Of a stretch of 37,810 bases of DNA, positions 1-30,580 are shown piece after piece. The notes below the pieces were generated by a model that saw nothing but the letters and a program-made list of their open reading frames with translations, did no database searches and had not been told where the DNA came from. A program made the position numbers and the translations under genes. Positions within the stretch are counted from its first letter, which is position 1, and the number at the start of each line of letters is the position of its first letter. The stretch comes from Deltaproteobacteria bacterium (lineage in GTDB: Bacteria; SAR324; NAC60-12): positions 1-37,810 of the forward strand of contig JABGPG010000153.1 in the NCBI GenBank assembly GCA_018645085.1. Direction: 5' to 3'.

Positions 1-7
1 TTATCGT

Positions 8-1099
8 TTACGAAGCAGGAACTAAAATCGCGCGGCGCTGTAATTTATGCGCGTGACCTGCAGCAAATATTTCATTGATCGAGTCCAGCGGATGTTGCTC
101 AATAAACGGAGCTAACTGTACTTTTCCGTCCAGCACTAAATCCAGAGCAGCGCCATAAAGTTCAGGTGCGCAGCCCCAGTTTCCGAGGGCCCTTGCGTCA
201 AAGGCCATCAAATTAGAAAGCCGCATTTCCGTTTTTTCCATCGTAAAGCCGAGCACACTCAGAGTTGCACCATGAGTGAGCAGATTAAATGCAGTGGCTT
301 GTCCGGCACCTGTTCCGGAACATTCATAAATAAACCATTCCTGAGAAGGCAAACCTTGTTCTTTAACAAAATCACGAATCTTTTTTTTCAATTCACGCGC
401 ATCATATTCTTTTGAGTTAAGCGTGAGCGAGACTCCGTAATCTTTAAGTGCTGACAATTTTTCAGCATCCACATCAATCGCAATCACTGTCGCACCGAGT
501 GCCGCATTAATCTGCACCGCATATCCACCTATTCCGCCGACACCTACTACAATCGCTAAATCACCTTCTCCAACTCCGGCCCGAACTGCTGCCTGATATG
601 GAGTTGTTACCGCATCGGCAATCACTGAAACATCAGCCAGTGTCAGCTTTGCTTTTTCCAAACGTACTTCATCCACCAGACATAAGCCTTTTGCGGGTAC
701 AACTATATGAGAAGCAAATCCGCCCTGAATATCATTTCCGGGCATTTTCTGACTCCGGCAAATTGAGCTGCGTCCTTTTTTACAAAGTTCACATTCTCCG
801 CAGGGCATAACTGCGGGAACAATCACCGCACGACCCAGCCATTCTTCAGATCCGGAAGAAGTTTCAACTACGCGTCCGCTTATTTCGTGGCCCAAAGTAA
901 GTGGTAAAGGATGGTTAGTGCGTACTCCATCATAGTAAAAACCCAAATCGGTGTGACATACCCCGCAACCTGCGACCTTTACCAAAACCTCACCTGCTGA
1001 AATCTGAAATTCAGCATTGGAAGTCAATGGATCAATTTCTTCTTTTATTAAAGGCCTTCCGACCTCCGTCATCTGCCAATGGAAAAAAGATTGTTTCAT
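8..1099 (-). CDS. had: Zinc-dependent alcohol dehydrogenase, 6-hydroxycyclohex-1-ene-1-carbonyl-CoA dehydrogenase (Had) type
   Basis: This is a 363-residue medium-chain dehydrogenase. Visible motifs are GCGVCHTD with catalytic-zinc Cys48, GHE (His71-Glu72), the structural-zinc cysteines C100, C103, C106 and C114, and a Rossmann GVGGIGG at 186-192 followed by Asp209, which favours NAD over NADP. The stretches [13 protein letters not shown] and [17 protein letters not shown] are, from memory, typical of Had rather than of ordinary alcohol dehydrogenases. Had oxidises 6-hydroxycyclohex-1-ene-1-carbonyl-CoA to the 6-oxo compound in bcr-type benzoyl-CoA degradation. The divergent neighbour korAB fits, because 2-oxoacid:ferredoxin oxidoreductase supplies reduced ferredoxin in that pathway. 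The gene reads toward the left edge, so any further pathway genes in its operon would lie outside the window. Zinc dehydrogenase is near certain; the Had substrate is inferred. Confidence 0.75.
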
Positions 1100-11110: not shown

Positions 11111-12334
11111 TTATTTTCTACAAGACTCCGGCATTAGTTCGACTGTGATTCTGTCTGCGAGCAACATTCCTTTTGCTGTTAAACATAAGTACTGACCTTT
11201 CCAGAAAGCTCTTCCTGCAGCACAAAGTTCGTTGACAAGATCAAGCTGCTGTTTTTCCCACTGTAATCCATAGCGCTTCTGCCATTGCTCTATATTAACT
11301 CCTTCCGGTTGACGTAAAGCCAGCATCAGGGATTCAGCAGCCTGCTCATTCACCTGCAACTGCTCTTCAAAATCAACCGGCCAGGTATTTTGCTCAAGAT
11401 GTTTGAGGTAAGTCTTTAGTGAGCGCTTGTTGCCCCAACGGGTTTGACTGAGATAGGAATGTGCACCAACTCCGAATCCTAAATATTCATTTCCGGACCA
11501 GACCAGTAAGTTGTTCCGGCCCTCTTTAGTTTTTAAGGCAAAGTTCGAAACTTCATATTGAATTAAACCTGCTTTTTCCAGACGTTCCGTTGCCCACAAA
11601 TACATATCTTCGAATTGCTGCTGATGTTCTGAGTCCCATTTACGGATCTGCTCATTTTGCCCAAATGGTGTCTTTTCATGAATTTCCAGTCCATATAATG
11701 ATATATGTGAAGGATAATAAGAAAGCGCTTCCTCAACATCTTTTCTGAACATCGAAATACTTTGTTCCGGAATACCGAACATTAGATCAAGGTTCCAATT
11801 ATCAATTGCTGAATCAGCAATCGCCTTGAGCGCTTGCCGTAATTCTAAGCCGGAATGAAACCGGCCCAACTTCTTTAAAGTTGCTGCCTGGAAACTTTGA
11901 CCTCCCAGACTAAGCCGGTTTACGCCTATTTCCGCAAGACCACTCAGATAATCTGGGTTCACATCTTCAGGATTCATTTCAAAGGAAATTTCTAGTTGAT
12001 CAGAGCAGGGGAAACAATTCCTGACTTGACTCAGTAACAGCTCAATTTCCGGAATCCTGAGACTGGATGGTGTACCTCCACCAAAATATATTGACTCAAG
12101 CATTTTCTGTCCGGATAGTTTTGCGCCACGATCAATCTGCTTTTTTTCCTCTAACCATGCTGCACGTCTAGTTATTTCATCAAGCATTCCAAGGATATAT
12201 TTTTCATGCAATTCCGCTCTGTCGCGTCTAACAGCAAAGGAACAAAAAGGACAAATATGCCTGCAAAAAGGAATATGAAGATAGACGGCAGGCACAGGAC
12301 TATTTTTTTTTGGCTTTTTGTGTGCTAATTTCAT
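11111..12334 (-). CDS. hemW: Radical SAM heme chaperone HemW
   Basis: A 407-residue radical SAM protein with the cluster motif CRHICPFC (C24, C28, C31). Position 33 is Phe, whereas coproporphyrinogen dehydrogenase HemN has a fourth Cys there; this distinguishes HemW. GGGTPSSL follows as the SAM-binding glycine motif, and the HemN-type C-terminal domain (about 320-400) is present. HemW binds heme and is proposed to insert it into respiratory enzymes. A lysine-rich N-terminal extension of about 14 residues precedes the barrel. No clear Shine-Dalgarno is seen before the ATG, only an A-rich tract. It lies upstream of flagellin on the same strand but flagellin has its own promoter. Confidence 0.93.
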   Translation of the reverse strand: MKLAHKKPKKNSPVPAVYLHIPFCRHICPFCSFAVRRDRAELHEKYILGMLDEITRRAAWLEEKKQIDRGAKLSGQKMLESIYFGGGTPSSLRIPEIELLLSQVRNCFPCSDQLEISFEMNPEDVNPDYLSGLAEIGVNRLSLGGQSFQAATLKKLGRFHSGLELRQALKAIADSAIDNWNLDLMFGIPEQSISMFRKDVEEALSYYPSHISLYGLEIHEKTPFGQNEQIRKWDSEHQQQFEDMYLWATERLEKAGLIQYEVSNFALKTKEGRNNLLVWSGNEYLGFGVGAHSYLSQTRWGNKRSLKTYLKHLEQNTWPVDFEEQLQVNEQAAESLMLALRQPEGVNIEQWQKRYGLQWEKQQLDLVNELCAAGRAFWKGQYLCLTAKGMLLADRITVELMPESCRK

Positions 12335-12559
12335 TTTTTTTTACTTTTAATATCAGTAAACTAATTGTTGATCTTTGATTTAACAGGAGAACTTTTTTGT
12401 TGATTTTATGAGCCAGTTGAACTACATTATCAAACCCAGATCAAGTTAGAGATTTTGTCAGTATAAGCATTATGGCTGAAGTTCTTGCATAGCACAAATA
12501 TTCTCTACTGTACGGTTCCAAAAGAGATGTTATCTCACTGATATAACGATTTATATTTA

Positions 12560-12595
12560 TATCAATAGAGCACATGAGCATGTGATTTATTGATA
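12560..12595. promoter_or_regulatory. Nested 36 bp dyad upstream of nrdJ
   Basis: Outer arms TATCAATA/TATTGATA (8 bp, perfect) and inner arms CACATG/CATGTG (6 bp, perfect) are separated by symmetric 3 nt steps (GAG and ATT) around a 2 nt centre. Fourteen base pairs in exact symmetry are unlikely by chance in AT-rich DNA and suggest a regulator site or a cruciform or RNA hairpin. The regulator is unknown. Confidence 0.5.
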
Positions 12596-12671
12596 ATATG
12601 TGAAGCTAAAATACTTAAGTTACAAGCTTTTTTGCGCAGTCCAGGATTGATTTTTCCAAAGGACGGCAATT

Positions 12672-12699
12672 TATGCAATATTTTCATGATTATTGCATA
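12672..12699. promoter_or_regulatory. Inverted repeat TATGCAATA / TATTGCATA upstream of nrdJ
   Basis: The two 9 bp perfect arms (12672-12680 and 12691-12699) are separated by 10 nt, placing their centres 19 bp apart, about two helical turns. It lies about 85 bp upstream of the nrdJ -35. It is a candidate dimer-binding operator. Confidence 0.45.
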
Positions 12700-12782
12700 C
12701 AGAATACTGGATTAAATTTAAGAATCCGGCCTTTAAGTTTTACGCGTTTAAGTATACTTTAATCAGTGAAGGAAACCATGGA

Positions 12783-12811
12783 TTGGCTAAACTTCATTTT
12801 TATTTTATAAT
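12783..12811 (+). promoter_or_regulatory. Sigma-70 promoter of nrdJ
   Basis: TTGGCT (12783-12788), 17 nt, and a perfect TATAAT (12806-12811). The predicted start is near 12818, leaving a leader of about 15 nt with AAGG before the ATG at 12833. Confidence 0.65.
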
Positions 12812-12832
12812 ACAAAACACTAAAAGGCATAC

Positions 12833-15800
12833 ATGAAAATTAAACGCCTCTTCACCATGGAAGGTGAGAGTCCATATCAGTCGATGGAATTTGAAAACCG
12901 CAGTTCCATCATCCGCAATCCTGACGGCTCAGTAGTCTCAGAGTGGGAAAAAGTTTCTGTACCAACAGATTGGTCTCAGGTAGCAACTGACATCATGGCC
13001 CAGAAATATTTCCGCAAAGCCGGAATCCCCAAACATCTCAAAGTAGCCAAAGAAAGAGGAATCCCCGCATGGCTGCAACCTTCTCTACATGATCAGGCAA
13101 AGCAGGAACAGGAAGCCGCAGAAGCAAAAACTTCCGGAGATGATTCCACCACTTCGGAAACTGACGCACGTGAGGTTTTTCACCGGCTTGTCGGCTGCTG
13201 GACGTATTGGGGTTATAAGAACAACTATTTTGATACAGAAGAAGACGCCCGCGCATTTTATGATGAATTATGCCACATGCTGGCCAACCAAATGGCAGCG
13301 CCAAACTCTCCTCAATGGTTCAATACTGGACTAAACTGGGCGTACGGACTTAACGGTCCTGCACAGGGACATTATCACGTTGACCAAAAAACCGAAGAAG
13401 TCATCCCTTCCAAAGACGCCTATACACGTCCACAGCCTCATGCGTGCTTTATTCAGTCAGTCAAAGACGATTTAGTACGTGAAGGCGGCATCATGGATTT
13501 GTGGACACGTGAGGCCCGTCTTTTCAAATACGGCTCAGGAACAGGCTCCAACTTTTCTGATTTACGCGGAGATATGGAACCACTGTCTGGAGGAGGTGTA
13601 TCTTCAGGACTGATGTCATTTCTCAAAATTGGTGATTCTGCAGCCGGCGCGATCAAGTCCGGTGGAACTACTCGCCGTGCGGCAAAGATGATCTGTATTG
13701 ATGCCGATCATCCCGATATTGAAAAATTTGTTAACTGGAAAGTTCATGAAGAGCAAAAAGTCGCAGCCCTGGTGGCAGGTTCTAAAACGATTAAAGAACT
13801 GATTAACGAACTATTCACTGCGATTCACAGCTGGGGAGTTGAAGCTGAAAAGTTTGACCTCAAGTTGAATAAAGACCTGCGTAAAGTCGCCAAAAAAGCC
13901 CGACTGGCACAAATGCCTTTCAGCTATGTTCACCGTATCATCCATTTGGCACAGCAAGGTTACACAGATGTTTTGTTTGAAGAATACGATACAGACTGGA
14001 ATTCTGAAGCATATCAAACTGTTGCAGGACAAAACGCCAACAATTCAATCCGTCTTAGTAATGACTTCATGGAAGCAGTTGAGCAGGACAAAGACTGGAG
14101 TCTTTTCTGGCGTGTTGAAAAAGTAAAAGCCAAAAAGGAAGGTAGAAAACCTGTTCCGTGCAAGACACTCAAGGCAACTGAACTCTGGGAAGAGATTGCC
14201 TATGCGGCCTGGGCCTCAGCAGATCCGGGGATTCAGTTTGATACAACAATCAATGAATGGCACACCTGCCCCGCTGATGGACCGATTCGGGCATCAAATC
14301 CCTGCAGTGAATATATGTTTTTGGACGACACTGCGTGCAACTTGGCTTCCCTGAATTTGATGCGTTTCCGTGATCCTAAAACCGGCGAACTTGATATTGT
14401 AAAATTAAGGCACGGTTCAAGGATTTGGACAATTGTTTTAGAAATAAGTGTGCTGATGGCGCAGTTTCCAAGTAAGAACATTGCCAAGCTTTCCTATGAT
14501 TTCCGAACACTCGGTTTAGGTTATGCAAATTTGGGAACGTATTTAATGGTTAACGGAATTCCTTATGATTCTCCGGAAGCCCTTGCTATTTGCGGTGCAG
14601 TGACTTCCATCATGCATATGACTTCTTACTCAACTTCCTCGGAAATGGCAAAAGAGTTAGGCACATTTGCCGGTTATGAGAGAAACAAAGAGAATATGCT
14701 GCGGGTACTCCGTAATCACCGGCGTGCCGCTTTTCGTGCTCCGGACAGTGAATATGAAGGTTTGACCATCAAACCTATCGGAATCGACAGTCAACATTGC
14801 CCTCCTGAATTACTCAAAGCAGCTCAACAAGATGCAAATCAGGCTTTGAAACTCGGAGAAAAACACGGTTTCCGTAATGCACAGGTCACTGTGATTGCAC
14901 CCACCGGAACCATCGGTCTGTTAATGGATTGCGATACAACCGGAATTGAGCCGGACTTTGCGCTGGTTAAATTCAAAAAACTGGCCGGCGGTGGTTATTT
15001 CAAAATCATTAATAATTCCATCCCATTAGCTTTAAAGAAACTTGGCTATACAGACCCAGAAGTTGCTGATATTGTGCATTATATCAAGGGCTATGCACGT
15101 TTAGAAGGAAGTCCCTGCATCAATGCAAATGTTTTGCGCAGCAAAGGTTTTACGGATGAAGTACTCAAGCGCATAGAAGAACAGTTAGCAACCGCATTTG
15201 ATATCAGTTTTGTTTTCAACCTCTATACACTTGGAGAATCATTCTGCAAGGAAACACTGGGTTTGACTGATGAGCAGCTTGGAGATTTTGATTTCAGCAT
15301 CCTCAAGCATCTCGGATTCACTGGCAAGGAAATAGAAGCAGCCAATGATTATATTTGCGGAACTATGACCAGTGAAAACGCTCCGCATCTCAAACAGGAA
15401 CATTACAGTATTTTCGACTGTGCAAACAAGTGCGGACGCAATGGTAAGCGCTTTATTGCAGCTGATGCACACATCCGGATGATGGCGGCTGCGCAGCCTT
15501 TTATTTCCGGTTCGATATCTAAAACCATCAACATGCCGGGCGATGCTAATGTGACCGATATTAAGCAGGCATTTTCCACTTCCTGGCACAATGGTTTAAA
15601 ATGCAACGCACTTTACCGGGATGGTTCAAAACTCAGTCAACCGCTTAACGTCAGTGTAGAAGAAGATTTGTGGGACGAAGACGAGGCAGAGGAAAGTATC
15701 GCAGCTGTACAACCGGCGCAAATCAGAATTGCGGAAAAAATTATTCACCGCTACATCGCCAAACGCAGAAAATTACCGCACCGCCGTAACGGCTACACAC

Positions 15801-16531
15801 AAAAAGCGGTGATTGGAGGACACAAGCTCTACCTGCGTACCGGTGAGTATGAGGACGGTACAATAGGTGAAATTTTTCTCGATATGCACAAAGAAGGTGC
15901 GGCGTTCAGAAGTTTGATGAACAGTTTTGCGATTGCCATTTCACTAGGACTGCAGCATGGTGTGCCGCTGGAAGAATTTGTGGAAGCCTTTATTTTTACC
16001 CGTTTTGAACCAAACGGGATGGTTGCCGGAAATGATAATATCAAAATGAGTACTTCCATCATTGATTACGTTTTCCGTGAACTGGCAATTTCTTATCTGG
16101 GTCGTAACGATTTGTCACATGTCAATTCAGATGAGTTGCAGGCAAGTGCTGTACATACCCAGAATGAGTCTGAACCTGAGTTTGACAATGAACAGGTGGT
16201 TTCAGAAAGAACTCTCAGTACTGAAGAAAGCCAGGCCTTTCTGGAACAGGAGGACAAAGATTTTAAAGGAGTTGATTTTGCACTCTTGAAAAATTCAGCA
16301 CCGGAAACAGAACAGGCACAGGCGGATTTTGCGGGCAATACAGATTTTGCTGCAAATTCTTCCAGCGAAAGTTGGGAAGCACAGGAACGCTCCACAACCA
16401 GCCTTGTTCAGGAAGCACGGATGAAAGGTTATGAAGGTGAGTCATGCCACACCTGCCAGCAGTTCACTATGGTACGTAATGGTTCATGTCTCAAGTGTGC
16501 CTCTTGCGGTGCTACCAGCGGTTGCTCATGA
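12833..16531 (+). CDS. nrdJ: Class II (adenosylcobalamin-dependent) ribonucleoside-diphosphate reductase
   Basis: A 1232-residue protein of the large bacterial NrdJ type. The active-site finger loop NPCSE is at 489-493 (Asn489, thiyl Cys491, Glu493). Cys205 and Cys502 are the redox pair: the 11-residue spacing from Cys491 to Cys502 equals C408 to C419 of the Lactobacillus enzyme. PTGTIG and the cobalamin-side [14 protein letters not shown] follow. The C-terminal 30 residues hold a cysteine-rich tail (CHTC, then CLKCASC) for re-reduction by thioredoxin. It makes deoxyribonucleotides with or without oxygen and requires B12. No intein is seen. The gene is monocistronic, with its own promoter and terminator. 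Confidence 0.96.
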
Positions 16532-26650: not shown

Positions 26651-29158
26651 ATGACAGAAGTAGATAATAAAATCCTCATCAATGTAGAGGATGACGAAAC
26701 CAGAATTGCGTTATTACACGGCAATAAGCTGGATAACCTTTACATTGAACAAACTCACCGCTCCCAAAAAGTTGGTAATATTTATTGCGGTAAAGTAATA
26801 AAAGTACAACCTTCCTTTCAGGCGGCCTTCATTGATTACGGTGAAGAACGTCACGGTTTCCTTTCCCTTTCCGATATAAACTTCCAAGTCTATAAACCAA
26901 ACCGTGAAGGACGCGGACGGCCTTCCATCACACAGGTTCTTAAACCCGGACAAAAAATTCTGGTTCAGGTAATCAAAGATGAAATTGGACACAAAGGCGC
27001 GTCAATAACCACAAACATTTCTTTGGCGGGACGTTTTCTTGTTTTTATGCCGGACAGTGACCGTGGCGGTGTTTCCAAAAAAATTGAAGATGAAGACCAA
27101 AGGGCGCGTTTGCGTCACTTACTGAAAGGTCTCGGAAGTGAAAATTCATCAGCTATTATCCGTACGGTTGGAGTTGATCGTTCGCTCACTGAATTGAAAC
27201 GTGACTACACGATTTTACGCCGTACCTGGAATGAAATCAAAGACGAGTACGAAGAGCAATCAACTCCTGGCATACTCTATCAGGAAGAAGACGCGATGCT
27301 GCGGATGATCCGTGATTATTACAATGACAGTATTTCGGAAGTTGTGATTGATGAACCGGTTGCATTTCAACATGCCTTGGAGTTTTTTAAAACTCATATG
27401 CCGGCAGAACAAAATAAGCTGCAGCTTTATCTTGGCGAAAAATCTCTTTTTTCAACTTATGATATTGAAGGCCAAATTGAAGTACTGCATCACCCGCAGG
27501 TTCCTTTGCCTTCAGGCGGTTCATTAGTCATCATGCCTACAGAAGCACTTGTGGCAATTGACGTCAATTCCGGAAGATCCACTCAAGAAAGAAACGTTGA
27601 GGCAACCGCATTACGTACAAACCTTGAGGCTGCAGATGAGGTTGCAAGACAGTTACGTTTAAGAAACCTCGGTGGTTTGATTGTGGTGGATTTTATCGAT
27701 ATGGAAAACTCTAAAAACCGCCTTGCTGTAGAACAATTAATTGAAGAAGAAATGTCTTCAGACAAGGCCAAGACTTCGTTTGGCATAATTTCCAAATTCG
27801 GATTATTGGAATTAAGTCGTCAGAGAATTGCCAGCAGCTTGTCACTTAATTCTATTGAAATCACTTTAGCAAACAGGATTTTACGGAAAATTCATGATTC
27901 CGCAATTGAACAAAAAGTGATGCAGATTTACCTCAGACTGCCTTTAAAATTGGCGACCCATCTGCTCAATATTAAGCGCCAGCGTTTAACTCAAATGGAA
28001 ATGGATTACGGAATCCGCATTTCAATAACTCCTGACACTTTACTTGGAGTTGAAGAAATTCCGGAAATGGAAGTTACTTTAAAAGGACAGAGCGGAGGAG
28101 AAACCAGAACATCCGTGCCAATTTCCGCCTCTGATATGCGTGACGATAAACCAGGCAGGAAAAAAGGTCGTGCTAAAAAAGAGCAGGACAAAAAAGAGTT
28201 TGATAAAAAGGACGATTCCGTAACTGTTAAAAGTTCTCCGGAAAAGAAAACAGCGGATGAACAGCCCAAATCAACAGAAACTCCTGCAAAGACTTTGTCG
28301 AAAAATGAAGAGCTAAAGTCCGCTAAAGAGTCCAGAGTGAAAACTGAACTTCCGGATACAACTGCTGAAGCGAAAAAGGGCGCTGAAGAGTCATCAATAA
28401 AGGATCCGCAAAAAACTGCTGAAACCGATAAAAAACCAGCAGGAATCAGCAAACCTTCAACAGCAAATGCAGAAAAAACAGAAGAAACGGTAGTACTTTT
28501 TAAGAGTAGCCATGAACCTGTAAAAGCAGAGGTTGCTCCGAAAAAGATCATCTCAACTCAGGAAAAAATTGCTGAGAACAAGGACGAACCTACTGTTGCA
28601 ACTTATACAAGTGTTCACCTCGAAGATCAGCAGAATTTAACAGAGAAAACTAAAATTGTTGCTGCTAATAAAACAGTAAAAGAAGATACTGCAGAAACAC
28701 CAATGTTCAGTAGTGTTCATTTAGGCGATGCAGAAAAAAAAGCCAAACAGCTTGCTGCAAAGCAGGACTCTAAAGCTCCGGCAGCAGCAGATAAAACGGC
28801 GCCAGTTACGGATAAAAAGTCTGTAAAATCTGCTCCGCGTAAATCAACTGCAAAAAAACCTATCGCTAAAAAGACGGATTCCGCAAAAGTCTCCACAAAA
28901 GCACAACCCAAAAAAGCGAAAGTAGATTCTGCTGAAAAGTCCGTAGCAAAACCTAAATCTGCTCAAAGCAAAGTCTCTGCTGCAAAAAAGGATTCTGCAA
29001 AATCAGCAACTCCAAAACGTGCAGAACAGGATAAGAATTCTCCTGCGAAATCGCTTAAAACCACAAAACCTAAGCCAAAGGCAAAAATTCCTCAGCAGCA
29101 GCAAGATAAGCCCGTAACACCGGCTGCTGCTCCCAAAGCAGAAGAGTCTGCTGCTTAA
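26651..29158 (+). CDS. rng: Ribonuclease E/G without the zinc-link cysteines
   Basis: The protein has 835 residues. The catalytic part (about 1-480) has the S1 domain (about 40-120), the RNase-H-like part, and the magnesium ligands Asp304 (AIDVNSGR) and Asp347 (VVDFIDM), equal to D303 and D346 of E. coli. The CPxC zinc link that should follow SRQR is absent: the segment reads IASSLSLNSIEITLANR, and the whole protein has a single Cys (C46). The C-terminal tail (about 480-835) is Lys/Ala/Ser/Thr/Pro-rich low-complexity sequence, suited to RNA binding or scaffolding. It cleaves AU-rich single-stranded RNA and matures rRNA. selA follows after 27 nt. Confidence 0.92.
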   Translation: MTEVDNKILINVEDDETRIALLHGNKLDNLYIEQTHRSQKVGNIYCGKVIKVQPSFQAAFIDYGEERHGFLSLSDINFQVYKPNREGRGRPSITQVLKPGQKILVQVIKDEIGHKGASITTNISLAGRFLVFMPDSDRGGVSKKIEDEDQRARLRHLLKGLGSENSSAIIRTVGVDRSLTELKRDYTILRRTWNEIKDEYEEQSTPGILYQEEDAMLRMIRDYYNDSISEVVIDEPVAFQHALEFFKTHMPAEQNKLQLYLGEKSLFSTYDIEGQIEVLHHPQVPLPSGGSLVIMPTEALVAIDVNSGRSTQERNVEATALRTNLEAADEVARQLRLRNLGGLIVVDFIDMENSKNRLAVEQLIEEEMSSDKAKTSFGIISKFGLLELSRQRIASSLSLNSIEITLANRILRKIHDSAIEQKVMQIYLRLPLKLATHLLNIKRQRLTQMEMDYGIRISITPDTLLGVEEIPEMEVTLKGQSGGETRTSVPISASDMRDDKPGRKKGRAKKEQDKKEFDKKDDSVTVKSSPEKKTADEQPKSTETPAKTLSKNEELKSAKESRVKTELPDTTAEAKKGAEESSIKDPQKTAETDKKPAGISKPSTANAEKTEETVVLFKSSHEPVKAEVAPKKIISTQEKIAENKDEPTVATYTSVHLEDQQNLTEKTKIVAANKTVKEDTAETPMFSSVHLGDAEKKAKQLAAKQDSKAPAAADKTAPVTDKKSVKSAPRKSTAKKPIAKKTDSAKVSTKAQPKKAKVDSAEKSVAKPKSAQSKVSAAKKDSAKSATPKRAEQDKNSPAKSLKTTKPKPKAKIPQQQQDKPVTPAAAPKAEESAA

Positions 29159-29185: not shown

Positions 29186-30580
29186 ATGTCTTACCAAAAC
29201 CTTCCGTCCATCACAGAGTGTGATGCGTTTCTCAAGGAACAAAAGCTCCCTCACGGCAAAGCAGTCAGGGAGCAGGTAAACATCGTGCTGGATCAGCTAC
29301 GATCAGAAATTTCCAAAAATCCACACAAAGCTGTTTCAACTGCCAATGCAGAAATATTGGAGCGTGTTGCAGCACAAGTCCGCAATCAATCTCAGACCAC
29401 CCAAAGAGTAATCAATGCAACCGGCGTTGTAGTACATACTAACTTGGGCCGAGCTCCTTTGTCCGAAGTTTTGTTACGCAAAGTATTACCCGGCATGAGT
29501 TCCTACTCTACCTTGGAATTTGATCTCAGCACGGGAAAACGCGGTTCACGCGATGCAAAAATCCGCAAACTGCTGCGTACCCTTTCTGGTGCAGAAGATG
29601 CGATGGTGGTTAACAATAATGCCGCTGCTGTGTTTTTAATGCTAAAGGCATTGAACGGAAATGAGACTGAAAACAAAAAACCTGAGGTTATTGTCTCCAG
29701 AGGAGAGTTAGTAGAGATTGGTGGATCTTTCCGGATTCCCGACATAATGCGTGAAGCAGGAGTCAAACTGGTAGAAGTTGGTACGACTAACCGCTGCCGG
29801 CTTGCGGATTATGAACAGGCCCTCACAGAAAACACCGCTGCTCTGTTAAAAGTACATCCTTCAAATTACGAAATCCAAGGCTTTACGGAAGAGGTTTCCG
29901 TTGAAAAAATGGCACAGCTCGCACACTCAAAAGGTCTGCTTTGCTTTCATGATTGGGGAAGCGGCAGTTTTTACAAGTTCCGCCAACGTGGTTTGAGTGA
30001 GTATTCAACTGCGGAACAGGAACTCTCAGCCGGTCCTGATTTGCTGGCCTTCAGCGGTGACAAATTGCTCGGTGGAATACAGGCTGGTGTGTTACTTGGA
30101 AAAGCTGAAAATATTCAAAAACTGCGTCAGCATGCTCTCTATCGAGCATTACGTTTAGACAAAGTGACACTTGCTTTGTTTGAAGCAACTTTGGAAGCAT
30201 ATCTTGATTTAAAAACTCTAGCGGAAAATGTGCCTACTGTCGGACTGCTTGAACTGACACGCGAAGAAATTCGAGAACAAGTAAATGACTTTCTTAAACT
30301 ACTCAACTTAGCTGACAATACAGCCTGGACATGCGAACTCCGCGAAACTGAATCACGTACCGGAGGTGGAGCTTTACCGGAACTTCCAATTGAGTCGGCT
30401 GCACTTGTTTTGTCACATCCGGAAAAGTCCGCAAATGAGTTACAGAATTGGTTTAGATCACAAGCTGTCCCCGTTATCGTCAGGATCCACGAAGATCAAA
30501 TTTGGCTCGATTTCCGCACAATTCTTCCACAGGATAAAGAAGTACTGCTGAGGGTCCTCTCGCTACTGATTTCTAGCTGA
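29186..30580 (+). CDS. selA: L-seryl-tRNA(Sec) selenium transferase
   Basis: A 464-residue PLP enzyme. The conserved NATGVVVHTNLGRAPLS block is at 77-93, GSGSFYKF-type contacts follow HDWGSG (255-260), and PLP-binding Lys293 lies in FSGDKLLGG. The N-terminal tRNA(Sec)-binding helices (about 1-65) are present. It converts Ser-tRNA(Sec) to Sec-tRNA(Sec) with selenophosphate, so the organism should read some UGA codons as selenocysteine. SelB, usually next to selA, is not present here. The start ATG lies 27 nt after rng, making co-transcription possible. Confidence 0.95.
   Translation: MSYQNLPSITECDAFLKEQKLPHGKAVREQVNIVLDQLRSEISKNPHKAVSTANAEILERVAAQVRNQSQTTQRVINATGVVVHTNLGRAPLSEVLLRKVLPGMSSYSTLEFDLSTGKRGSRDAKIRKLLRTLSGAEDAMVVNNNAAAVFLMLKALNGNETENKKPEVIVSRGELVEIGGSFRIPDIMREAGVKLVEVGTTNRCRLADYEQALTENTAALLKVHPSNYEIQGFTEEVSVEKMAQLAHSKGLLCFHDWGSGSFYKFRQRGLSEYSTAEQELSAGPDLLAFSGDKLLGGIQAGVLLGKAENIQKLRQHALYRALRLDKVTLALFEATLEAYLDLKTLAENVPTVGLLELTREEIREQVNDFLKLLNLADNTAWTCELRETESRTGGGALPELPIESAALVLSHPEKSANELQNWFRSQAVPVIVRIHEDQIWLDFRTILPQDKEVLLRVLSLLISS

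Follow-up and report, generated by a model that had tools for sequence, protein, structure and literature searches.

In E. coli RNase E, the Zn-link is a conserved motif required for tetramer formation and full activity (PMC2631609). The rne gene at positions 26651–29158 of the window, the whole 37,810-nucleotide stretch of DNA that was analysed, encodes an enzyme in which the initial annotation recognised no CPxC Zn-link, and it raises the question of how RNase E protomers can be joined without a shared zinc.

The rne gene and its shortened hinge

The gene lies on the plus strand, as do all of its features described below, starts with ATG and forms an intact open reading frame of 835 aa for an E-type endoribonuclease of the RNase E/G family; its nearest named relatives are SAR324 cluster or Candidatus Lambdaproteobacteria records. 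The product belongs to the family according to TIGR00757 (Rne/Rng family, 458.3 bits, cut-off 325.95), and it matches Pfam RNase_E_G (PF10150, E = 2.5e-95, 319.4 bits, cut-off 25.5). The match to NF008074, the E. coli-type RNase E equivalog, stayed below its cut-off (403.4 bits against 908) and covered only residues 7–464. At E up to 0.001, RNase_E_G, RNase_E_G_Thio and S1 were the only Pfam domains found. RNase E types have reportedly been classified by Ait-Bara and Carpousis (2015). By sequence, the closest solved structure is 2bx2, from the E. coli enzyme (E = 6.2e-109).

Sixteen positions were mapped with E. coli rne from NC_000913.3 as the reference. Eleven are identical, including the catalytic D303, N305 and D346, which correspond to D304 (27560–27562), N306 (27566–27568) and D347 (27689–27691), and R169 and T170 of the 5′-sensor, which correspond to R171 and T172; V128 aligns with V131. 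The catalytic Asp pair therefore aligns one-to-one with E. coli, as had been claimed. Three positions are altered (R141 to K143, R373 to K374 and K433 to E420), and two, C404 and C407, have no partner. Ahead of the hinge lie an S1 RNA-binding domain (approximately residues 39–120, 26765–27010; Pfam S1 at 39–109 and alignment), a 5′-sensor domain containing R171 and T172 (approximately residues 121–216, 27011–27298; mapping to E. coli and a structure match to 4oxp) and a DNase I-like domain with the three catalytic residues (approximately residues 281–395, 27491–27835), the last placed by residue mapping, an AlphaFold2 model and a structure match to 6x2d_A (108 residues superposed at rmsd 1.1, Z 20.8).

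Alignment to E. coli confirmed the absence of the Zn-link. A block of 14 residues corresponding to E. coli C404–E417, the zinc knuckle with C404-P-R-C407, has no counterpart between I404 and T405 (27862/27863), and the motif CPxCxGxG was not found between the DNase I and small domains. The hinge is thereby reduced to residues 393–404 (27827–27862; alignment, with model pLDDT below 50 at 396–400). The small domain begins right after the gap and is retained (residues 405–477, 27863–28081), as indicated by Pfam RNase_E_G_Thio (PF20833) at 406–467, by model elements from H400-419 to E474-477 and by constraint. Besides the 14-residue block, no further loss was seen in the catalytic half. The whole protein has, as noted earlier, a single cysteine, C46 (26786–26788), which lies within the S1 domain.

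Distribution and origin of the loss

Among 52 SAR324 genomes surveyed, 49 had a TIGR00757 match, and profile end positions were counted by hand. Sixteen of the 46 E-type proteins with a readable hinge lack the block, their matches stopping at profile positions 386–391: 13 come from the genus of the window (g1), two from a sister genus (g4) and one from another (g8). The other 30 keep the region (match to at least 410), meaning that the segment is there and not that both cysteines are implied; ten are from other genera of the window's family (f1), nine from family f2 and 11 from f3/f4. Direct reading of the E-type loci L002–L036 found CxxC at the hinge absent in 15 and present in 20, and likewise absent in L072 and present in L073–L076. 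Two named loci, L081 and L083, share contig coordinates with matches in genomes G013 and G001 and are not independent cases.

The initial annotation proposed to check whether the loss is fixed in the lineage. It is fixed as far as the hinge can be read in the window's genus (13/13) and in the two sister genera (3/3), but not across SAR324, where 30/46 keep the region. The survey covered 17 genomes of the genus, and in the remaining four it met either the gene tail alone at a contig edge (G010) or no E-type gene (G007, G009 and G015). The rne tail piece in G010 adjoins the start of an ORF (locus L194) similar to the one at 29186–30580 that directly follows rne in the window. This ORF resembles bacterial SelA (selenocysteine synthase). 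Elsewhere in the window, at 12833–16531, lies the gene for a B12-dependent ribonucleotide reductase of class II, which is 1232 aa long and contains a TSCPD domain.

Beyond SAR324, CxxCxG was present in 68/68 loci (L093–L160) titled other than SAR324 among the best 80 relatives listed, some of the titles giving just 'Proteobacteria' or 'Deltaproteobacteria'. In 100 Pseudomonadota genomes, 147/147 above-cut-off matches among those listed reach at least profile position 406 by hand count, and three listed matches below the cut-off were partial. In 59 Desulfobacterota genomes, 77/80 above-cut-off matches reach at least 408; one of the other three ends at 402, and two end at 397 and 374, both at contig edges. 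Reaching the profile end means that the segment exists and does not prove both cysteines. The borderline rows G186 (ending at 402) and G058 (ending at 406) both carry CPxC on reading (CPYC and CPHC). No other Zn-link loss was seen in the surveyed Pseudomonadota and Desulfobacterota, the two phyla covered besides SAR324. A search of open-licence PMC literature, including passages of PMC3997798, PMC6538622, PMC4435900, PMC10783494, PMC10989914, PMC12510024 and PMC2631609, found no description of an RNase E without the Zn-link, and no literature on SAR324 RNase E was found in open-licence PMC text.

The origin of the loss was traced on a 61-row tree built only from the large domain: the 16 Zn-link-less proteins, 23 E-type proteins with the Zn-link, 15 of the 35 G-type loci and seven of the 68 outgroup loci. 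The Zn-link-less proteins need one change on this tree (support 85/65), arise only once in 87% of the 200 bootstrap trees and form a clade nested inside the Zn-link-bearing members of their family. The gap boundaries are identical in all 16, which also favours one event. The data are most simply explained by one in-frame deletion in the ancestor of the three genera, with modest tree support. As judged from sequence, the catalytic half is otherwise kept while the 14-residue knuckle is absent in three related genera, and the Zn-link-less RNase E is a real, clade-wide variant of a known enzyme.

SAR324 genomes also contain a short, RNase G-like G-type enzyme of about 490–520 aa. Its matches reach the Zn-link columns in 42/42 full matches (hand count), and CxxC is present in 35/35 G-type loci read, two of them partial (L070 and L071). 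A full G-type match accompanies the Zn-link-less E-type in 14 of the 16 genomes; G013 has a G-type fragment at a contig edge, and none was found in G000, the genome of the window, probably owing to assembly incompleteness (the draft is 88.16% complete, in 294 contigs). In genome G016, contig C54 carries two G-type genes or pieces about 12 kb apart, L053 in full (12298–13482) and L070 in a 225-aa open frame near the contig end (24380–24928).

The small domain and a proposed assembly without a shared zinc

The fold was predicted with an AlphaFold2 monomer model from a 54-row alignment of the window's protein and related loci (mean pLDDT 87.6, pTM 0.83), in which the small domain is folded and the hinge is uncertain at 396–400. 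A model of the Zn-link-bearing sister L085 has the same elements plus strands 402–404 and 413–415 at the knuckle site. Against 2bx2_L, the SAR324 model aligned over 2..480 (446 residues at rmsd 14.7, Z 38.5) and the L085 model over its whole length (466 residues at rmsd 15.1); the high rmsd probably arises because the domains of a modelled monomer are free to orient. The structure-match listings were dominated by S1 domains, so that families sharing only the small domain could go unlisted.

Selection on the two domains was then compared. Divergence in the small domain, taken as a ratio to that in the large domain, was 1.31 over 113 Zn-link-less pairs and 1.74 over 20 Zn-link-bearing pairs of the same family; the pairs are non-independent, and those differing by at most 5% in the large domain were dropped (120 to 113 and 21 to 20, respectively). 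In the Zn-link-bearing families f2 and f3 the ratio was 1.22 (36 pairs) and 1.18 (6 pairs), below that of the Zn-link-less proteins, so conservation of the small domain is not exceptional: it is no more relaxed than in Zn-link-bearing relatives of its own family, yet not more conserved than in f2 or f3. Over nine pairs from the window's genus, dN/dS was 0.05–0.13 in the large domain (9/9 pairs) and 0.02–0.38 in the short region of hinge plus small domain (0.02–0.17 in 8/9), with one pair reaching 0.38 and one pair showing saturated synonymous change, in each case in the small domain. Given these low values, we read the enzyme and its small domain as being in use and under purifying selection.

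In E. coli RNase E, contacts between DNase I domains dominate the dimer interface, small-domain contacts join the dimers, both kinds are hydrophobic, and the junction of large and small domains is flexible (PMC2631609). Activity of the E. coli enzyme is preserved after Zn-link disruption when the tetramer is artificially maintained, and a double-cysteine mutant in Caulobacter shows slower ctrA mRNA decay (PMC12510024). With the DNase I and small domains kept and constrained, the enzyme may adopt an E. coli-like arrangement that lacks the metal pin, or it may form a dimer. The statement in the initial annotation that the enzyme must assemble differently goes further than these data. We favour, with a probability of roughly two in three, a working E-type RNase E/G that lost its knuckle in one ancestral deletion, is held by two metal-free interfaces and uses its tail as a docking arm. 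Like its E. coli counterpart, the enzyme would sense RNA 5′ monophosphates and use Mg2+ for cleavage, and its copies would be held by DNase I–DNase I and small domain–small domain contacts across a shorter hinge, sharing no zinc.

The alternative that survives best, though we hold it to be doubtful, is that the enzyme stops at a DNase I-mediated dimer, with the small domain serving RNA binding or packing within that dimer. E. coli Zn-link mutants do not form tetramers (PMC2631609). Flanking residues have also changed: the 16 proteins have neither K402 nor R415, both fixed in 9/9 Zn-link-bearing family members examined, and E452 is replaced by D in 16/16. A fragment without the tetramer domain reportedly retains core catalysis (Caruthers 2006). 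Against this stand the divergence ratios and dN/dS values, in which the small domain shows no decay, and the hydrophobic rather than metal-based nature of the E. coli small-domain contacts (PMC2631609). Only P54, E148, I410, D452 and E468 are fixed in the 16 proteins and absent from the nine Zn-link-bearing family members compared, and five signature residues are too few for compensation to be argued from them.

It is very improbable that ocean bacteria shedding dispensable zinc sites discarded the Zn-link among them. Zinc can be scarce in sea water, and the named relatives are presumably sea-water organisms (titles such as ALOHA), but the G-type paralogue of the same genomes keeps CxxC, ribosomal protein L31 has four Cys in 21/21 copies read (22 found; L211, off the reading pattern, was left unread), and L36 has CxxC, a third Cys and a His in 23/23 read (28 found; L241–L245 likewise unread). 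The copies read include those of Zn-link-less genera. Since these zinc sites are intact where read and the G-type CxxC is kept, zinc saving is unlikely.

Slightly less credible again is a replacement link, in which the joining would fall to a different set of metal ligands or to the G-type paralogue as a partner. In its favour, all 16 Zn-link-less proteins share H437, and the seven Zn-link-bearing relatives compared mostly have another residue there (Q, F, H, Y, F, Q and F). A column-by-column check of the Zn-link-less proteins, however, found no conserved Cys/His cluster at the hinge, so that the cysteines at an alternative link position which would have undercut the initial annotation did not appear; two of the three genera have Q in place of H415, and two have F or R in place of C46. 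Moreover, the shared zinc of E. coli needs a motif from each protomer, and the SAR324 protein has none.

That the gene is a paralogue in decay or without activity, or that the gap is an artefact of assembly, can in practice be set aside despite the incomplete draft and one in-frame TAA within the Zn-link-less RNase E match of a relative (G004, L009), because the same gap in 16 SAR324 genomes, including that of the window, is no assembly accident, the catalytic residues are kept and large-domain dN/dS is low in every pair.

The C-terminal tail and comparison with known systems

From about residue 466, overlapping the end of the small domain, the protein continues into a low-complexity tail rich in Lys, Ala, Ser, Thr and Pro (28046–29155), characterised by its composition (K 0.20, A 0.13, S 0.10, T 0.09, E 0.09, P 0.08) and by dN/dS (0.37–0.84 over nine pairs from the window's genus). 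Tail alignment revealed three copies of a motif [FY]xSxH: FKSSH (residues 617–621, 28499–28513), YTSVH (residues 652–656, 28604–28618) and FSSVH (residues 686–690, 28706–28720), the first and third also found by a count of the stricter pattern [FY][SAMNKQV]S.H and the second outside it. A longer form, [VILMT][FY]xSxH, occurs in 2–3 copies, often spaced by about 35 residues, in the RNase E tails of family f1, whether or not the Zn-link is present, and in 5/9 tails of f2.

The stricter pattern was counted 31 times in 12/12 tails of the window's genus (0.09 expected by shuffling), six times in 3/3 tails of the two sister genera (0.01 expected) and 16 times in 8/8 Zn-link-bearing tails of the window's family (0.04 expected); as the motif had been chosen by eye on the aligned tails, this enrichment within f1 is post hoc. 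It occurred six times in 5/9 f2 tails (0.04 expected; two of these tails are short) and in 0/6 f3/f4 tails, 0/5 G-type tails and 0/68 non-SAR324 tails, the f2 and outgroup counts being only partly independent. Tails cut by contig ends (L007 and L017) and L076 were left out. Its presence in enzymes with and without the Zn-link suggests that the motif is probably older than the loss. It is possible that [FY]xSxH is a degradosome docking site, and the tail would then be the lineage's own docking arm, acting through its repeated motifs. The description of the tail as a long Lys/Ala/Pro stretch that replaces the degradosome scaffold holds for its Lys/Ala-richness, but replacement was overstated: RNase E usually has a long disordered tail, and a conserved, repeated motif is present in this one.

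Taken as a whole, we regard the chances as evenly balanced that the three SAR324 genera represent a zinc-free RNase E lineage whose oligomer is independent of shared metal, whose G-type enzyme keeps its zinc site and whose tail docks partners via the new [FY]xSxH motif. If so, two enzymes of one cell would differ in their response to zinc or oxidative stress. The clade would be a natural experiment on which contact (DNase I, zinc or small domain) RNase E needs, and one cell with both Zn-link-bearing and Zn-link-less RNase E/G would allow the role of the metal to be separated from that of the fold.

Among known systems, RNase W/FAU-1 (8rza and 8wo8) resembles the SAR324 protein in its S1/5′-sensor fold (Z about 17, rmsd 2.4 over about 150 residues). 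The Pyrococcus enzyme is reported to have been purified as a monomer, and RNase W is described as lacking an RNase domain of the kind found in RNase E (PMC11602121), whereas the SAR324 protein has RNase_E_G. Identity with RNase W/FAU-1 was rejected, since the DUF402-type RNase domain is absent from the Pfam matches and RNase_E_G is present. The SAR324 G-type paralogue is of the same family but keeps CxxC, is almost tailless and branches apart as a clade of its own (100/100). E. coli RNase E (2bx2) shares domain order, the catalytic D/N/D, the 5′-sensor R/T, the small domain and a long low-complexity tail; the SAR324 enzyme differs in having no CPxCxGxG, a hinge 14 residues shorter and a repeated tail motif of its own, absent from 68 non-SAR324 tails. 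The cyanobacterial RNase E (Anabaena) likewise lacks one of two oligomerisation devices and has a lineage-specific tail, but it is the mirror case, keeping the Zn-link and having no small domain, according to PMC10989914. This reverse case means that evolution can separate the two devices, and the SAR324 clade would have taken the path opposite to that of the cyanobacteria, relying on two protein–protein interfaces.
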